A stretch of DNA of 64,000 bases from Chelativorans alearensis. GTDB lineage: Bacteria; Pseudomonadota; Alphaproteobacteria; Rhizobiales; Rhizobiaceae. Position 1 is the first letter of the stretch. The number at the start of each line of letters is the position of its first letter. Where the stretch lies: contig NZ_WQNI01000016.1 of NCBI RefSeq assembly GCF_010993735.1, positions 1 through 64,000 of the forward strand, given 5' to 3'. This document shows, in pieces, positions 52,239 to 55,767 of the stretch. The notes under the pieces are model-generated. The model did no database searches. It saw only the letters and a list, made by a program, of their open reading frames with translations, and was not told the DNA's origin. Made by a program: the position numbers and the translations under genes.

Positions 52239-53062
52239 CGATGGACGGGTTGCCGCCGCTGCGCGACGTCATCCGGCGGCACGGGCTTTTCGCCAAAAAG
52301 GCGCTCGGCCAGAACTTCCTCCTCGACCTCAATCTGACGCGCCGCATCGCCCGCACGGCGGGCCGGCTCGAGGATGCGACCGTCATCGAAGTGGGGCCGG
52401 GGCCCGGCGGGCTGACGCGGGCGCTCTTAAGCGAGGGGGCCTTGCGCGTGATCGCGATCGAGCGCGATGAACGCTGTATCGCGGCACTGGAGGAGATCGC
52501 CGGGCATTATCCCGGCCGTCTGGAGATCGTGGCCGGCGATGCGCTGAAGACGGACTTCGCAGCCCTTGCGGCGGGTGCGGAGCCGGTGAAGATCGTCGCC
52601 AACCTGCCCTACAACATCGGCACGGAGCTTCTGATCCGCTGGCTGACGCCGGAGCGCTGGCCCCCGTTCTATGCGTCCATGACGCTGATGTTCCAACGCG
52701 AGGTGGCGGAGCGCATCGTCGCGCGGCCGGGCAGCGGCTATTACGGGCGGCTCGGCGTGCTTGCCGGCTGGCGGGGGCAAGCGCGGATCGCCTTCGACGT
52801 CCCTCCCCAGGCCTTCACCCCGCCCCCCAAGGTGACGTCGTCGGTGGTGCACATCGTGCCGAACGCCGAGCCGCTGCCGGTCGAGGCGGGAAAGCTGGCG
52901 CGGGTGACGGAAGCGGCCTTCGGCCAGCGGCGCAAGATGCTGCGCCAGAGCCTGAAGAGCCTTGGCGGCGAAGCCTTGCTTGCAAAAACTGGGATCGACG
53001 GGACGCGGCGGGCGGAGACGCTCGGCGTTGAGGAGTTCGTGGCGCTGGCGCGGCTTTTATAA
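52235..53062 (+). CDS. rsmA: 16S rRNA dimethyladenosine methyltransferase
   Basis: A 275-residue enzyme that dimethylates two adjacent adenosines near the 3' end of 16S rRNA during 30S maturation. The SAM-binding motif is [16 protein letters not shown], the acidic ribose contact is IAIERDERC, and catalytic motif NLPYNIGT is present. [11 protein letters not shown] at the N-terminus is a family hallmark. Its start overlaps pdxA, the usual pdxA-rsmA order. Confidence 0.97.
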
Positions 53063-53243
53063 GGGCGCTTATGCCGGGGGCTGGGCAGGGGCTCGGGTTG
53101 AATTTTGATTCTCGGCCCGTTGCTACGGTCGGCAATAGGCGGGGCAGGTCTCAATTGAGCCCGGAGCGGTCGTTCCCCGTAGAGGGTTTCTTCGTCGAGG
53201 AATCGGCGGGCGGCGATCCACCCGCCGGATCCTTGTCGATTGG

Positions 53244-53555
53244 CTAGGCGTCACCCTTGATCCATTGCGGTGTGATCGTGCGAAACTCCGACGGTCCGGC
53301 GAGCAGCGCGGCCGTCTCCCGCTCATAGTCCGGATACCAGGGCTGTTTGACGAAATCGCCCGTTCCGGCCTCGTCAGTATAGAGCTGGTAGGCGACGATC
53401 GCATCGGGATCGGTGTCGTCGAAGCCGTAGACATAGGCGACCTGGCCACTGGCGCCTTCGATATAGGCGCGCGCATATTTCTCCCAGATGCGCTTCACCT
53501 CGTCTCGCTTGCCGGGCTGCGCCTTGTGCCTGATGTACAGTGCTTTCGTGCTCAT
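53244..53555 (-). CDS. Antibiotic-biosynthesis-monooxygenase-fold (ABM) protein
   Basis: A 103-residue protein resembling the dimeric ferredoxin-like ABM/quinol-monooxygenase fold: ALYIRHKAQPGKRDEVKRIWEKYA, then YVYGFDDTDPDAIVAYQLYTDEAGTGDFVKQPWYPDY. The typical first strand and a following helix are clear; the catalytic residues of this loose family are not fixed. It lies downstream of the ECF41 sigma gene on the same strand, and a matching promoter element lies 66 bp before its start. That makes it the likely target of the sigma factor. Confidence 0.8.
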   Translation of the reverse strand: MSTKALYIRHKAQPGKRDEVKRIWEKYARAYIEGASGQVAYVYGFDDTDPDAIVAYQLYTDEAGTGDFVKQPWYPDYERETAALLAGPSEFRTITPQWIKGDA

Positions 53556-53620
53556 GATCTTCTCCTCGAACTTCGCGGCGCTTGGCCGCTAATGGCTGGG
53601 CTCCATGCCCATGCTCGTGT

Positions 53621-53647
53621 GACGTTCGAGGGGAGGTGTTTGTGACG
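53621..53647 (-). promoter_or_regulatory. Candidate ECF41 promoter of the ABM gene
   Basis: On the minus strand CGTCACA (53647-53641) is separated by exactly 16 bases from CGTC (53624-53621). The known ECF41 consensus is TGTCACA-N16-CGTC, so only the first base of the -35 differs. It lies 66 bp upstream of the ABM start at 53555. Confidence 0.65.
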
Positions 53648-53783
53648 CCGTGAGGAAAGAATCGCTGACGGGATATTGTGGCCTCTGATGGGGAGACCGT
53701 TCTGGAAAGAACCCGGCGAGGGCATCTGCCCTCGCCACGCCAGTATTCGCCGGCGATCGGCGTGCCACCCGATCCCTCAATGG

Positions 53784-54725
53784 TCAGTGAATTGATACCT
53801 CGCCCACGCCAGCGAGCTTGTCGGGATTGCGCACGATGAAGATGTCGGTGATGCGGTCCGAGCTGTCGAAGGCGAACGAGACCGTGGCAACAACCTTGCC
53901 ACCTTCCTTCAGCATCAGTCCCCGCGCACCATTGAGCTCGGCGAAGCTCCATTCGTAGGCTGCCCACCATCCGGTCAGCCGCTCTGTCAGGAACGCCAGC
54001 ACGGCGTCGCCTTCCAGGATGTCGGCCACCGTCGCAACCTTGCCGCCGCCGTCGGCGGTCAGGCGCACGTCGCTGGCAAGCATCGCGACCAGGCCGCCGG
54101 GCCGCCCCGTGCGGATGGCATCCTCGAAGGCGGTCAGCAATTCCTCCTGCCGTTCGCGCGTCGGCTGGTATCTCACCTGATCGTCACCGATGCGCGCCTT
54201 GGCCCGTGACACTAGCTTGCGGCACGCCGGCTCGCTCATATCCAGCGACGCCGCGATATCGGCATACGACATCTCGAATATCTCGTAGAGCAGATAGGCC
54301 GCCCTTTCCTTCGGCGTCAGGCGTTCCAGCATCAGCAAGAAGGCGGTCGAGAGAGACGATGAAAGTTCCATTTGCGCCTCCGCTTCGCTGTCGACAAGCG
54401 TGTGGACCGGCTCGGGCAGCCAGTTGCCGACATAGTCCACACGGCTGCGATAGGCGGCGCGAAGCATGTCGATGGCACGACGGGTGCAGGCGGTGGTCAG
54501 CCAGGCACCCGGAGAGCTGACGGTGGCTATGTCGGTCTCCTGCCAGCGAAGAAACGTGTCCTGAACCGCATCCTCGGCCTCAGCCCGCGAGCCGAGGATC
54601 CGGTAGGCAATACTGAGCAGCCGGGGCCGCGCGTGCTCGAATATCTCGGCTTGTGTCCGCGTCAGATCCTCGGGCATACCTGCCTGCTTCTGCAACCCGC
54701 CGGGTCGCTTTGCATTGCGTGTCAT
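53784..54725 (-). CDS. ECF41-family sigma factor
   Basis: A 313-residue extracytoplasmic-function sigma factor with a fused regulatory C-terminal domain. Region 2 is at about residues 28-92 (HARPRLLSIAYRILGSRAEAEDAVQDTFLRW) and region 4 at about 128-185 (LTPKERAAYLLYEIFEMSYADIAASLDMSEPACRK). ECF41 hallmarks are WLPEP (102-106) in the linker, DGGGK (225-229) and NPDKL (300-304) in the SnoaL-like extension. No separate anti-sigma gene is present, as expected. ATG 54725 is used; ATG 54677 is an alternative. Confidence 0.93.
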   Translation of the reverse strand: MTRNAKRPGGLQKQAGMPEDLTRTQAEIFEHARPRLLSIAYRILGSRAEAEDAVQDTFLRWQETDIATVSSPGAWLTTACTRRAIDMLRAAYRSRVDYVGNWLPEPVHTLVDSEAEAQMELSSSLSTAFLLMLERLTPKERAAYLLYEIFEMSYADIAASLDMSEPACRKLVSRAKARIGDDQVRYQPTRERQEELLTAFEDAIRTGRPGGLVAMLASDVRLTADGGGKVATVADILEGDAVLAFLTERLTGWWAAYEWSFAELNGARGLMLKEGGKVVATVSFAFDSSDRITDIFIVRNPDKLAGVGEVSIH

Positions 54726-54767
54726 CGACAACCTTTATCCCATATTGCGTATGCCCATGCCCTGTTT

Positions 54768-54794
54768 GACGATCCAACAGATCAGTTTGTGACA
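54768..54794 (-). promoter_or_regulatory. Candidate ECF41 promoter of the sigma gene
   Basis: On the minus strand TGTCACA (54794-54788) and CGTC (54771-54768) are separated by 16 bases, an exact match to the ECF41 consensus. The -10 element is 42 bp upstream of the sigma start, so the sigma factor probably drives its own transcription. Confidence 0.8.
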
Positions 54795-55110
54795 CCCTCC
54801 GATTCTATTTTAACCCTCTGCGCGGAGAATGATGAACGGAACAAAGTTCACCGGTCGGCAAGTGGGCGCCACAGGAGTCCTACGCCGTGGCTTTTCAAGG
54901 AAGACTGCTTCACCACCTGATTCTGGCGTTACGGCTTGACCTCGCGACGGTCGGCTATAGGTCGCGTTTTGCCGTAGCGCCGCGCCGAACGAAGGGCAGA
55001 CAAGGGTCGAAACACGTCCGTGCCAGCCGCCAATCCGAATGTCGCAAAAGTCCGCAATCATGCCATTCCGGCAGGTGAGGTGAAAGCCCACCTACCACCG
55101 GCCCCCGGCC
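54795..55110. other. Intergenic stretch without a recognised gene
   Basis: Sequence between the ECF41 sigma promoter and the gmk stop. Only short antisense-type frames without ribosome-binding sites are present. No tRNA or repeat was found. Confidence 0.6.
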
Positions 55111-55767
55111 TTACTCCCCCTTCTCCTCCAACAGCCCCGCCACAAAATCAAACAGCCCCGGCAGGCGGTCGCGGCGGAGGCGTTCGGCGGTGATGATGGC
55201 GCGCACGCTTGCGAAGGCGCGGTTCAGATCGTCGTTGACGATGACGTAGTCGTATTCCCGCCATTGCTCGATCTCGAAGCGGGCGTTCTTCAGCCGCGTC
55301 TCGATGACGTTCTGCGGATCCTCGGCGCGGCGCTTCAGTCGAGCCAGAAGCTCCTTCATCGTCGGCGGCAGGACGAAGATGGAGACGACATCGCCGCGCA
55401 TCTTCTCGCGCAGCTGCGCCGCGCCCTGCCAATCGATGTCGAACAGCATGTCGCGGCCTTCGGCGATCGCCTCCTCGACCGGCTTCTTCGGCGTGCCGTA
55501 GAGGTTTCCGTGGACCTCCGCCCACTCGAGGAGATCGTCGTTGTCGCGCAGCATCTCGAAGTCGCGCTGGGACTTGAAATGATAGTGCACGCCCTCGATC
55601 TCGCTGCCGCGGCGCGGCCGCGTGGTCACGCTGACCGAGAGCTCGAAGCCCGGCACTTTTTCGAGGATCGTGCGGGCGATGGTGGACTTGCCGGCGCCGG
55701 ACGGCGACGACAGGACAAGCATCAGGCCCCTGCGGCGGATGCCGTTGGAAGAAAGGTCCGGTTCCAT
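55111..55767 (-). CDS. gmk: Guanylate kinase
   Basis: A 218-residue enzyme that phosphorylates GMP to GDP. The P-loop is [10 protein letters not shown] near residue 20. The GMP-binding region has [21 protein letters not shown] and [15 protein letters not shown], and the lid/core has [12 protein letters not shown]. Located 6 bp after yicC on the same strand, the usual yicC-gmk pair. Confidence 0.97.

Follow-up and report, generated by a model that had tools for sequence, protein, structure and literature searches.

The closest described relatives of the system studied here are modules in which an extracytoplasmic function (ECF) sigma factor of group ECF41 is paired with a carboxymuconolactone decarboxylase (CMD), namely ydfG-ecf41Bli of B. 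licheniformis and RSP_0606-ecf41Rsp of R. sphaeroides (PMC3426412) and SMb20029-rpoE9 of S. meliloti (PMC6180224). The partner gene was the only ECF41 target detected in the first two species (PMC3426412), and no target other than the CMD gene was found for RpoE9 of S. meliloti (PMC6180224). Hallmarks of the group are a WLPEP motif in the linker between sigma2 and sigma4 (PMC3426412) and a distal NPDKL motif (PMC7730460). Members also carry a C-terminal extension of about 100 aa that folds like SnoaL/NTF2. This extension both inhibits and supports activity (PMC3426412, PMC6180224, PMC7730460, PMC8999054, PMC8103513), and its partial removal raised activity in reporter assays (PMC3426412). The inducing signal was unknown in 2012, when the neighbourhoods described by Wecke et al. 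were 34% lone and 6% ungrouped (PMC3426412). The group is widespread, and its partner enzymes are a clue to the signal. Here we analysed a 64,000-nt stretch of the Chelativorans alearensis genome (contig NZ_WQNI01000016.1, positions 1 to 64,000; hereafter the window), in which the neighbour of an ECF41 sigma gene encodes neither a CMD, an oxidoreductase nor an epimerase, which are common but not definitional neighbours for ECF41, but a protein predicted to have the fold of the antibiotic biosynthesis monooxygenase (ABM) family. The families, folds and promoters were computed, and from them we infer transcription, ligand, chemistry and feedback; with good confidence, we read the locus as an autoregulated ECF41 module in which an ABM-fold effector replaces the CMD. 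Its genes and promoters are:

Positions 53784 to 54725, minus strand: ECF41 sigma factor gene, 313 aa, with a likely ATG start at 54725 and an alternative TTG 6 nt upstream at 54731.
Positions 53244 to 53555, minus strand: gene for the ABM-fold protein (predicted fold), 103 aa, downstream of the sigma gene across a 228-nt gap.
Positions 54768 to 54794, minus strand: ECF41-type promoter of the sigma gene, TGTCACA-N16-CGTC, an exact match to the consensus.
Positions 53621 to 53647, minus strand: ECF41-type promoter of the ABM gene, CGTCACA-N16-CGTC, in which C replaces the first T.

Analyses of the sigma factor placed it in ECF41. It scored 277.2 bits against the NCBIfam SigJ model NF007214, above the cut-off of 271, and was classed as ECF41/SigJ and not SigX4 because its score against TIGR02957 (SigX4 subfamily), 290.8 bits, was under the curated cut-off of 323.25. 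The sigma2 and sigma4 domains were both past their Pfam cut-offs (PF04542, Sigma70_r2, 52.5 bits; PF08281, r4_2, 55.3 bits), and the top PDB match by sequence was SigJ (5xe7, E 5.7e-37). A first-pass annotation of this DNA had named WLPEP, DGGGK and NPDKL as three ECF41 hallmarks. All three motifs are present, at residues 102-106 (within YVGNWLPEP), 225-229 and 300-304, respectively; the status of DGGGK as a hallmark is that annotation's own claim, and the motif has 0 occurrences in the text of PMC3426412. WLPEP was found in 11 of 11 aligned sigma rows and NPDKL in 10, the remaining row having NPEKL. The last two motifs of the window protein fall within a predicted C-terminal domain:

Positions 53784 to 54167, minus strand: C-terminal SnoaL/NTF2-like extension with DGGGK and NPDKL, about residues 187-313, from a predicted model.

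The model of this extension resembles SigJ 5xe7, a SnoaL-like protein and ketosteroid isomerase folds over about 115-130 columns. Pfam SnoaL_2 was absent from the matches of the window sigma at E up to 1; a related sigma from Pseudosulfitobacter, described below, does match SnoaL in Pfam (28.4 against a cut-off of 27). Together, the SigJ model, the sigma domains, WLPEP and NPDKL, and the predicted extension fold upheld the ECF41 assignment.

The AlphaFold model of the ABM protein (pLDDT 79.4) has the ferredoxin-like alpha+beta fold of the family, and its PDB matches are LsrG, SnoaB (a cofactor-independent oxygenase by PDB title), PA0709/ArqI and YgiN. Two of four relatives passed the PF03992 cut-off (L018 at 29.3 and P0003 at 30.6 bits) and two were below it (L022, 18.9; L023, 16.9). 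The ABM fold named in the first-pass annotation was therefore upheld, by predicted structure and by those relatives that pass. The likeliest role for the protein would be to oxidise the inducer or to bind it. In P. aeruginosa, the ABM-fold protein ArqI acts through protein contact, and the ArqI-GloA2 operon answers glyoxal via an unidentified factor (PMC12274486).

Both promoter elements reported in the first-pass annotation were present at identical spacing. In the window, the -10 element ends 42 nt ahead of the start codon for the sigma gene and 65 nt ahead of it for the ABM gene. The shared pattern GTCACA-N16-CGTC was observed 2 times in the window against 0.09 expected, and two matches were reached in 0 of 100 shuffles. 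In the whole genome (5.70 Mb), on both strands, it has 8 matches, compared with 1 for the backwards control pattern, and the exact form TGTCACA-N16-CGTC has two. Three of the eight elements are promoters of ECF41 loci, these being the window pair and one before the other ECF41-CMD operon of this genome. Of the other five, four fall within frames, on one strand or the other, that span 110 codons or more and have a third-position GC content (GC3) above 0.72; ahead of the fifth there is no same-strand frame of this length and GC3. A larger regulon was considered and is not proposed, because these five exact-motif sites are not positioned as promoters of evident genes.

Conservation of the promoters in related genomes, which had been set out beforehand as the check on this pairing, was confirmed. 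The set of ABM orthologues comprised 6 loci from a pattern-based contig scan and 4 from a search of 151 genomes, the window's included; Chelativorans intermedius and Mesorhizobium L-8-3 came from both searches and were counted once. Close orthologues, 75-92% identical to the window ABM protein, occur in 8 species: the window's, Pseudaminobacter soli, M. sediminum, C. intermedius, Aquamicrobium LANL01G, G003, Mesorhizobium L-8-3 and Advenella FME57. The element stands before the ABM start in 8/8 of them, at 64-66 nt, and before the linked sigma gene in 7/7, at 39-45 nt. Fewer than eight of these lineages are independent, as M. sediminum and Aquamicrobium are nearly identical at the locus. In the ABM promoter alignment, 6/7 positions of the -35 element and 4/4 of the -10 element are invariant, in comparison to 0 of 45 columns just upstream; the spacer edges and the leader are partly conserved too. 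Since 12 of the 15 elements of the window clade read CGTCACA, the -35 element of this clade is best given as [C/T]GTCACA. Three ABM genes that do not neighbour an ECF41 gene served as a control, and none of them shows the element within 300 nt; among these, L045 has an uncertain start.

One of the eight species has the ABM gene apart from its sigma gene. In Mesorhizobium L-8-3 the ABM gene has no adjacent sigma gene, an intact promoter and, next on the same strand, a gene for a major facilitator superfamily (MFS) transporter; a sigma gene that shares 58-60% identity with that of the window is found at a distance of 3.8 Mb on the contig and has a TGTCACA-N16-CGTC of its own. That the ABM promoter was retained after unlinking argues for its independent use.

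A distant second case was found on plasmids. A tblastn search with the window ABM protein against 72,556 plasmid records gave 45 matching records, all Pseudosulfitobacter, of which three were examined. The gene order is LysR-ABM-SigJ, with the SigJ gene directly following the ABM gene in all three records, and an exact TGTCACA-N16-CGTC lies 48 nt ahead of the ABM start in both records checked for the motif. Public annotation already labels these genes “antibiotic biosynthesis monooxygenase” and “SigJ”. The Pseudosulfitobacter ABM protein is 31% identical to that of the window and its sigma 36%, and this operon strengthened the suggestion of the first-pass annotation that ABM proteins add a kind of target to those of ECF41. 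A LysR-CMD-SigJ locus in Paracoccus alcaliphilus, found with the Pseudosulfitobacter sigma (46% identity), and a CMD-sigma locus on S. meliloti pSymB, taken as that of RpoE9 from context, both have a CMD where Pseudosulfitobacter has an ABM gene, and we therefore consider that ABM fills the CMD slot.

When 49 ECF41 sigmas were placed on a tree, explaining the ABM label took 2 changes, and 2 are imposed by branches with good support. Ten rows form one supported set, made up of the window clade (7 rows), two CMD-linked sigmas and the sigma of L-8-3, which is unlinked; CMD-linked relatives of the window sigma, at 52-60% identity, occur in G086, G013 and G113, where the partners are CMDs by Pfam. 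Another supported set, of 5, joins the two Pseudosulfitobacter rows to the S. meliloti sigma, the CMD-linked sigma of the window's genome and a row with no label. Partners were labelled from annotation (L077, L078, L096, L097), from phmmer with two CMD proteins (class loci) or by eye; Pfam later confirmed the CMD label for seven loci (L011, L034, L035, L036, L047, L078, L096), and the unannotated rows L079 and L098 were counted as “other”. As judged from the sigma tree, there are two separate ABM-ECF41 pairings. The ABM proteins themselves are less clear-cut: the Pseudosulfitobacter protein scores 55-69 bits to the window ABM group against 36-43 to three ECF41-free ABM proteins, two ECF41-free proteins are just as close to the window protein (68-69 bits), and the ABM tree did not unite the two ECF41-linked groups with good support (77/74).

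As part of our best reading, we take the sigma-ABM pair to be a compact, horizontally mobile module; the insertion that contains it was computed from a comparison of junctions:

Positions 53063 to 55110: insertion of 2,048 nt holding the whole sigma-ABM module, between ksgA and gmk.

On one side the insertion adjoins the end, at 53062, of a gene that we take to be ksgA from reading its protein, the name having no profile result behind it. On the other is gmk (stop at 55111, minus strand), a guanylate kinase gene by Pfam. In the same genus, ksgA was found in 15 of 15 other genomes and a 1.5-kb flank of each was examined. Within that flank gmk is present and convergent with ksgA in 14 of the 15; the gap between the aligned ends is 22-188 nt in 13 and 744 nt in one, and the remaining genome is without gmk inside the flank. 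At this junction just 130 nt are present in the genome whose KsgA is most similar (97%), and the 2,048-nt stretch had no blastn match in the 15 genomes at E 1e-3. The pair lies 3.5 Mb away from ksgA in G003 and on a different contig from ksgA in G009, and in the sigma tree the sigma of Advenella, a betaproteobacterium, is nested within the window clade. Seven further frames of at least 60 aa in the insertion had no Pfam match at E 0.1, in a scan that excluded the short frames 53589-53780 and 54580-54795. In that scan the ABM gene was the sole recognisable partner gene inside the insertion and no neighbouring anti-sigma gene was found. A transposon or integron origin was considered, and the scanned frames show no transposase.

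If active, this module would most likely work as has been described for other ECF41 proteins, with the SnoaL-like domain keeping the sigma factor inactive through contacts between NPDKL and WLPEP. Binding of a small molecule by the same domain would release the sigma factor, which could then read its own promoter, amplifying the signal, and the ABM promoter, so that an ABM effector is made in the role that usually falls to the CxxC-type CMD. The ABM protein would oxidise or bind the inducer, probably a quinone-like, phenolic or reactive carbonyl compound, and so close a negative loop.

A different role for the ABM protein, which we consider unlikely, is that of a part of the switch itself, binding the sigma factor or its SnoaL-like domain, or making or destroying the ligand, and so acting like an anti-sigma factor or as a co-sensor. 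That ABM is the only recognisable partner in the insertion, that the ABM-ECF41 pairing occurs in two sigma lineages and that ArqI works by protein contact (PMC12274486) would fit such a role. In the Wecke 2012 study, though, partner enzymes showed no signalling role and the sigma factor was active in a host without ECF41 (PMC3426412), and an ABM gene that has an ECF41 promoter of its own and can sit far from the sigma gene fits a target better than an obligate regulator. We regard it as quite unlikely that the ABM promoter depends chiefly on the CMD-linked ECF41 of this genome on contig C32, or on both sigmas, which would leave the pair not insulated. The promoter before the C32 CMD gene is of the same class (TGTCACA-N16-CGTC), as that idea would have it, yet the window sigma and ABM gene sit inside a single insertion, and seven of the eight species have them linked. 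Identity between the two sigmas is just 37-39%, and most promoters of the window clade read CGTCACA. The first-pass annotation had described the regulon as self-contained. That the paired genes each have a promoter stands; the term is slightly too strong, because the second ECF41 shares the promoter class and the ABM gene is separated from the sigma gene in one relative. It is very improbable that the ABM gene is expressed solely by read-through from the sigma promoter, the element in front of it being a relic. The genes are on the same strand with a gap of 228 nt, and between them lies at most a putative terminator (the stem of 10 pairs at 53737-53714, followed by a short T-rich tail, is terminator-like, and there are 3 such sites against 1.9 expected), but the element is near-perfectly kept in all eight species, one of which has no upstream sigma gene.

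Several observations weigh against an autoregulated ABM-ECF41 module. The window ABM protein scored 22.9 bits against PF03992, 0.2 under the cut-off of 23.1, and the predicted model of the sigma factor has low overall confidence (predicted template modelling score, pTM, 0.43). The -35 element of the clade is mostly C-initial compared with the published T, and details of recognition may differ. The C32 sigma could read the window promoters. ABM is also rare as a partner: its profile matched 0 of the 29 other alphaproteobacterial ECF41 loci compared. These loci, with the window's, are 30 of the 66 ECF41 match rows obtained from 64 of 385 class genomes, with at most 6 candidates scored per genome.

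Widespread partnering with ABM was rejected on that count of 0/29. A CMD match was present in 18 of the 29 loci. Ten of the 11 without one (all but L071) were inspected: six show by eye a distant CxxC-type protein (L052, L057, L058, L061, L070, L072), L075 has an NmrA-like protein, L064 and L067 have no clear partner, and L069 is at a contig end. In L058, L061, L070 and L072 a frame of 177-218 aa upstream of the sigma gene has a DCGPC- or DCGEC-type CxxC motif and was missed by the CMD queries; two tested frames of this set had no Pfam match at E 0.01. The ABM profile matched in 4 of the 385 class genomes, the window's included, and in the other three sigma and motif were absent nearby. A search of 398 phylum genomes with the Roseobacter ABM protein gave the window ABM as the sole match, and among the 151 genomes (relatives and the window's own) the ABM gene is in 4 and a close sigma in 7.

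The second ECF41 gene of the genome and its CMD gene (L011 6206-10592) are inside a flagellar cluster, on the same strand, with neighbours matching PF03963, PF01313 and PF00771. We take these to be FlgD- and FliQ-type proteins on one side and an FlhA-type protein on the other. The Azospirillum ECF41 RpoE10 is reported to govern lateral flagella (cited in PMC12826043), which makes it an exception to the pattern of a single partner target. An MFS gene was also seen more than once: the genes behind the sigma-less L-8-3 ABM gene (L032 2312-3769) and behind the CMD-ECF41 of G086 (L034 2575-4002) encode proteins with 50% identity, and an MFS gene is behind a CMD-ECF41 in a Labrenzia plasmid as well. 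In G086 the CMD gene precedes its sigma gene, and because that locus does have a CMD partner we claim only a recurring MFS neighbour.

Two further kinds of feature were found in the insertion:

Positions 53575 to 53614, minus strand: conserved 5' leader of the ABM mRNA, with hairpins in tandem at 53614-53595 and 53589-53575, ahead of the ribosome-binding site.
Positions 53122 to 53139, plus strand: left copy of a flanking imperfect 18-nt direct repeat.
Positions 54944 to 54961, plus strand: right copy of this repeat.

Across the eight related rows from which the leader structure was read, 95.8% of cells in the hairpins are paired, and pairing falls to 28-46% (at most 46.3%) when the partner is slid. 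Compensatory changes occur in 3 of 12 pairs (reached in 34/500 shuffles), the covariation score is 0.247 (reached in 0/500), and further pair types were not above shuffles (238/500). Folded one by one, 7 of the 8 leaders have energies that are only modestly low (z -0.5 to -2.6). Rfam gave no match for the leader and one sub-threshold match within the sigma gene. A covariance model of the leader matched in 10 of the 151 genomes; four matches are ABM leaders (70.6-85.9 bits) and the other six (24.1-30.6 bits) seem by eye to be chance ribosome-binding-site or coding matches. The Pseudosulfitobacter leader, with a single hairpin of its own (z -2.3), is not detected by this model. The covarying hairpins are a possible second layer of control, though the palindromes may instead be a DNA operator for another regulator, which would give an equal covariation signal. 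The 15-nt core of the direct repeat, ACGGTCGGCNATAGG, has exactly two copies genome-wide and no further copy at up to 1 mismatch. The repeat was chosen from 8 repeat families, and because 3 of 200 simulated flanks reach an equal score we treat it as a mere hint, and for an origin from a transposon or integron it is no more than suggestive. The insertion status and the structured leader are additions to the first-pass annotation.

The occurrence of two ABM pairings in lineages with CMD relatives narrows the plausible inducer chemistry to a short list of candidates. We speculate, tentatively and with the odds against it, that ABM and CxxC-type CMD proteins are interchangeable, both handling the class of molecule sensed by the ECF41 SnoaL-like domain. 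If this speculation is correct, a peroxidase-like CMD and an ABM oxygenase would share one inducer class, and the twice-repeated swap would point to the missing inducer, for example a quinol/quinone or a reactive carbonyl that both could clear. Together with the promoter, the structured leader and the repeats at its flanks, the module would then make up a mobile detoxification cassette with a built-in sensor and sigma factor. More generally, a pair of 2 kb that occupies varied genome positions, reaches a betaproteobacterium and has no anti-sigma gene found with it may be of use as a compact sensor-switch cassette.

Full-text literature searches found no description of ABM as an ECF41 target; the 2021 ECF classification and supplements are outside their coverage, and a prior listing there is possible. 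The window locus is like the ECF41-CMD modules in its SnoaL-like extension, in WLPEP and NPDKL, in having no anti-sigma gene found, in TGTCACA-N16-CGTC and in its one neighbouring target. It differs from them in that the partner is an ABM-fold protein, is downstream, and has its own promoter and a structured leader, and in that an MFS gene is next in the unlinked case. M. tuberculosis SigJ (5xe7) is the best solved structure for the window sigma by sequence and by fold, at about 30% identity. LsrG, SnoaB, YgiN and PA0709/ArqI are 11-19% identical to the window ABM protein, and the literature examined ties none of them to an ECF41 sigma. The plasmid operon of Pseudosulfitobacter pseudonitzschiae resembles the window in that an ABM gene adjoins an ECF41 sigma gene and has an exact consensus promoter. 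Unlike in the window, its ABM gene lies on the upstream side of its sigma gene, with an overlap or a spacing of 11 nt in the annotation, and its sigma groups beside the CMD-linked sigma of S. meliloti.

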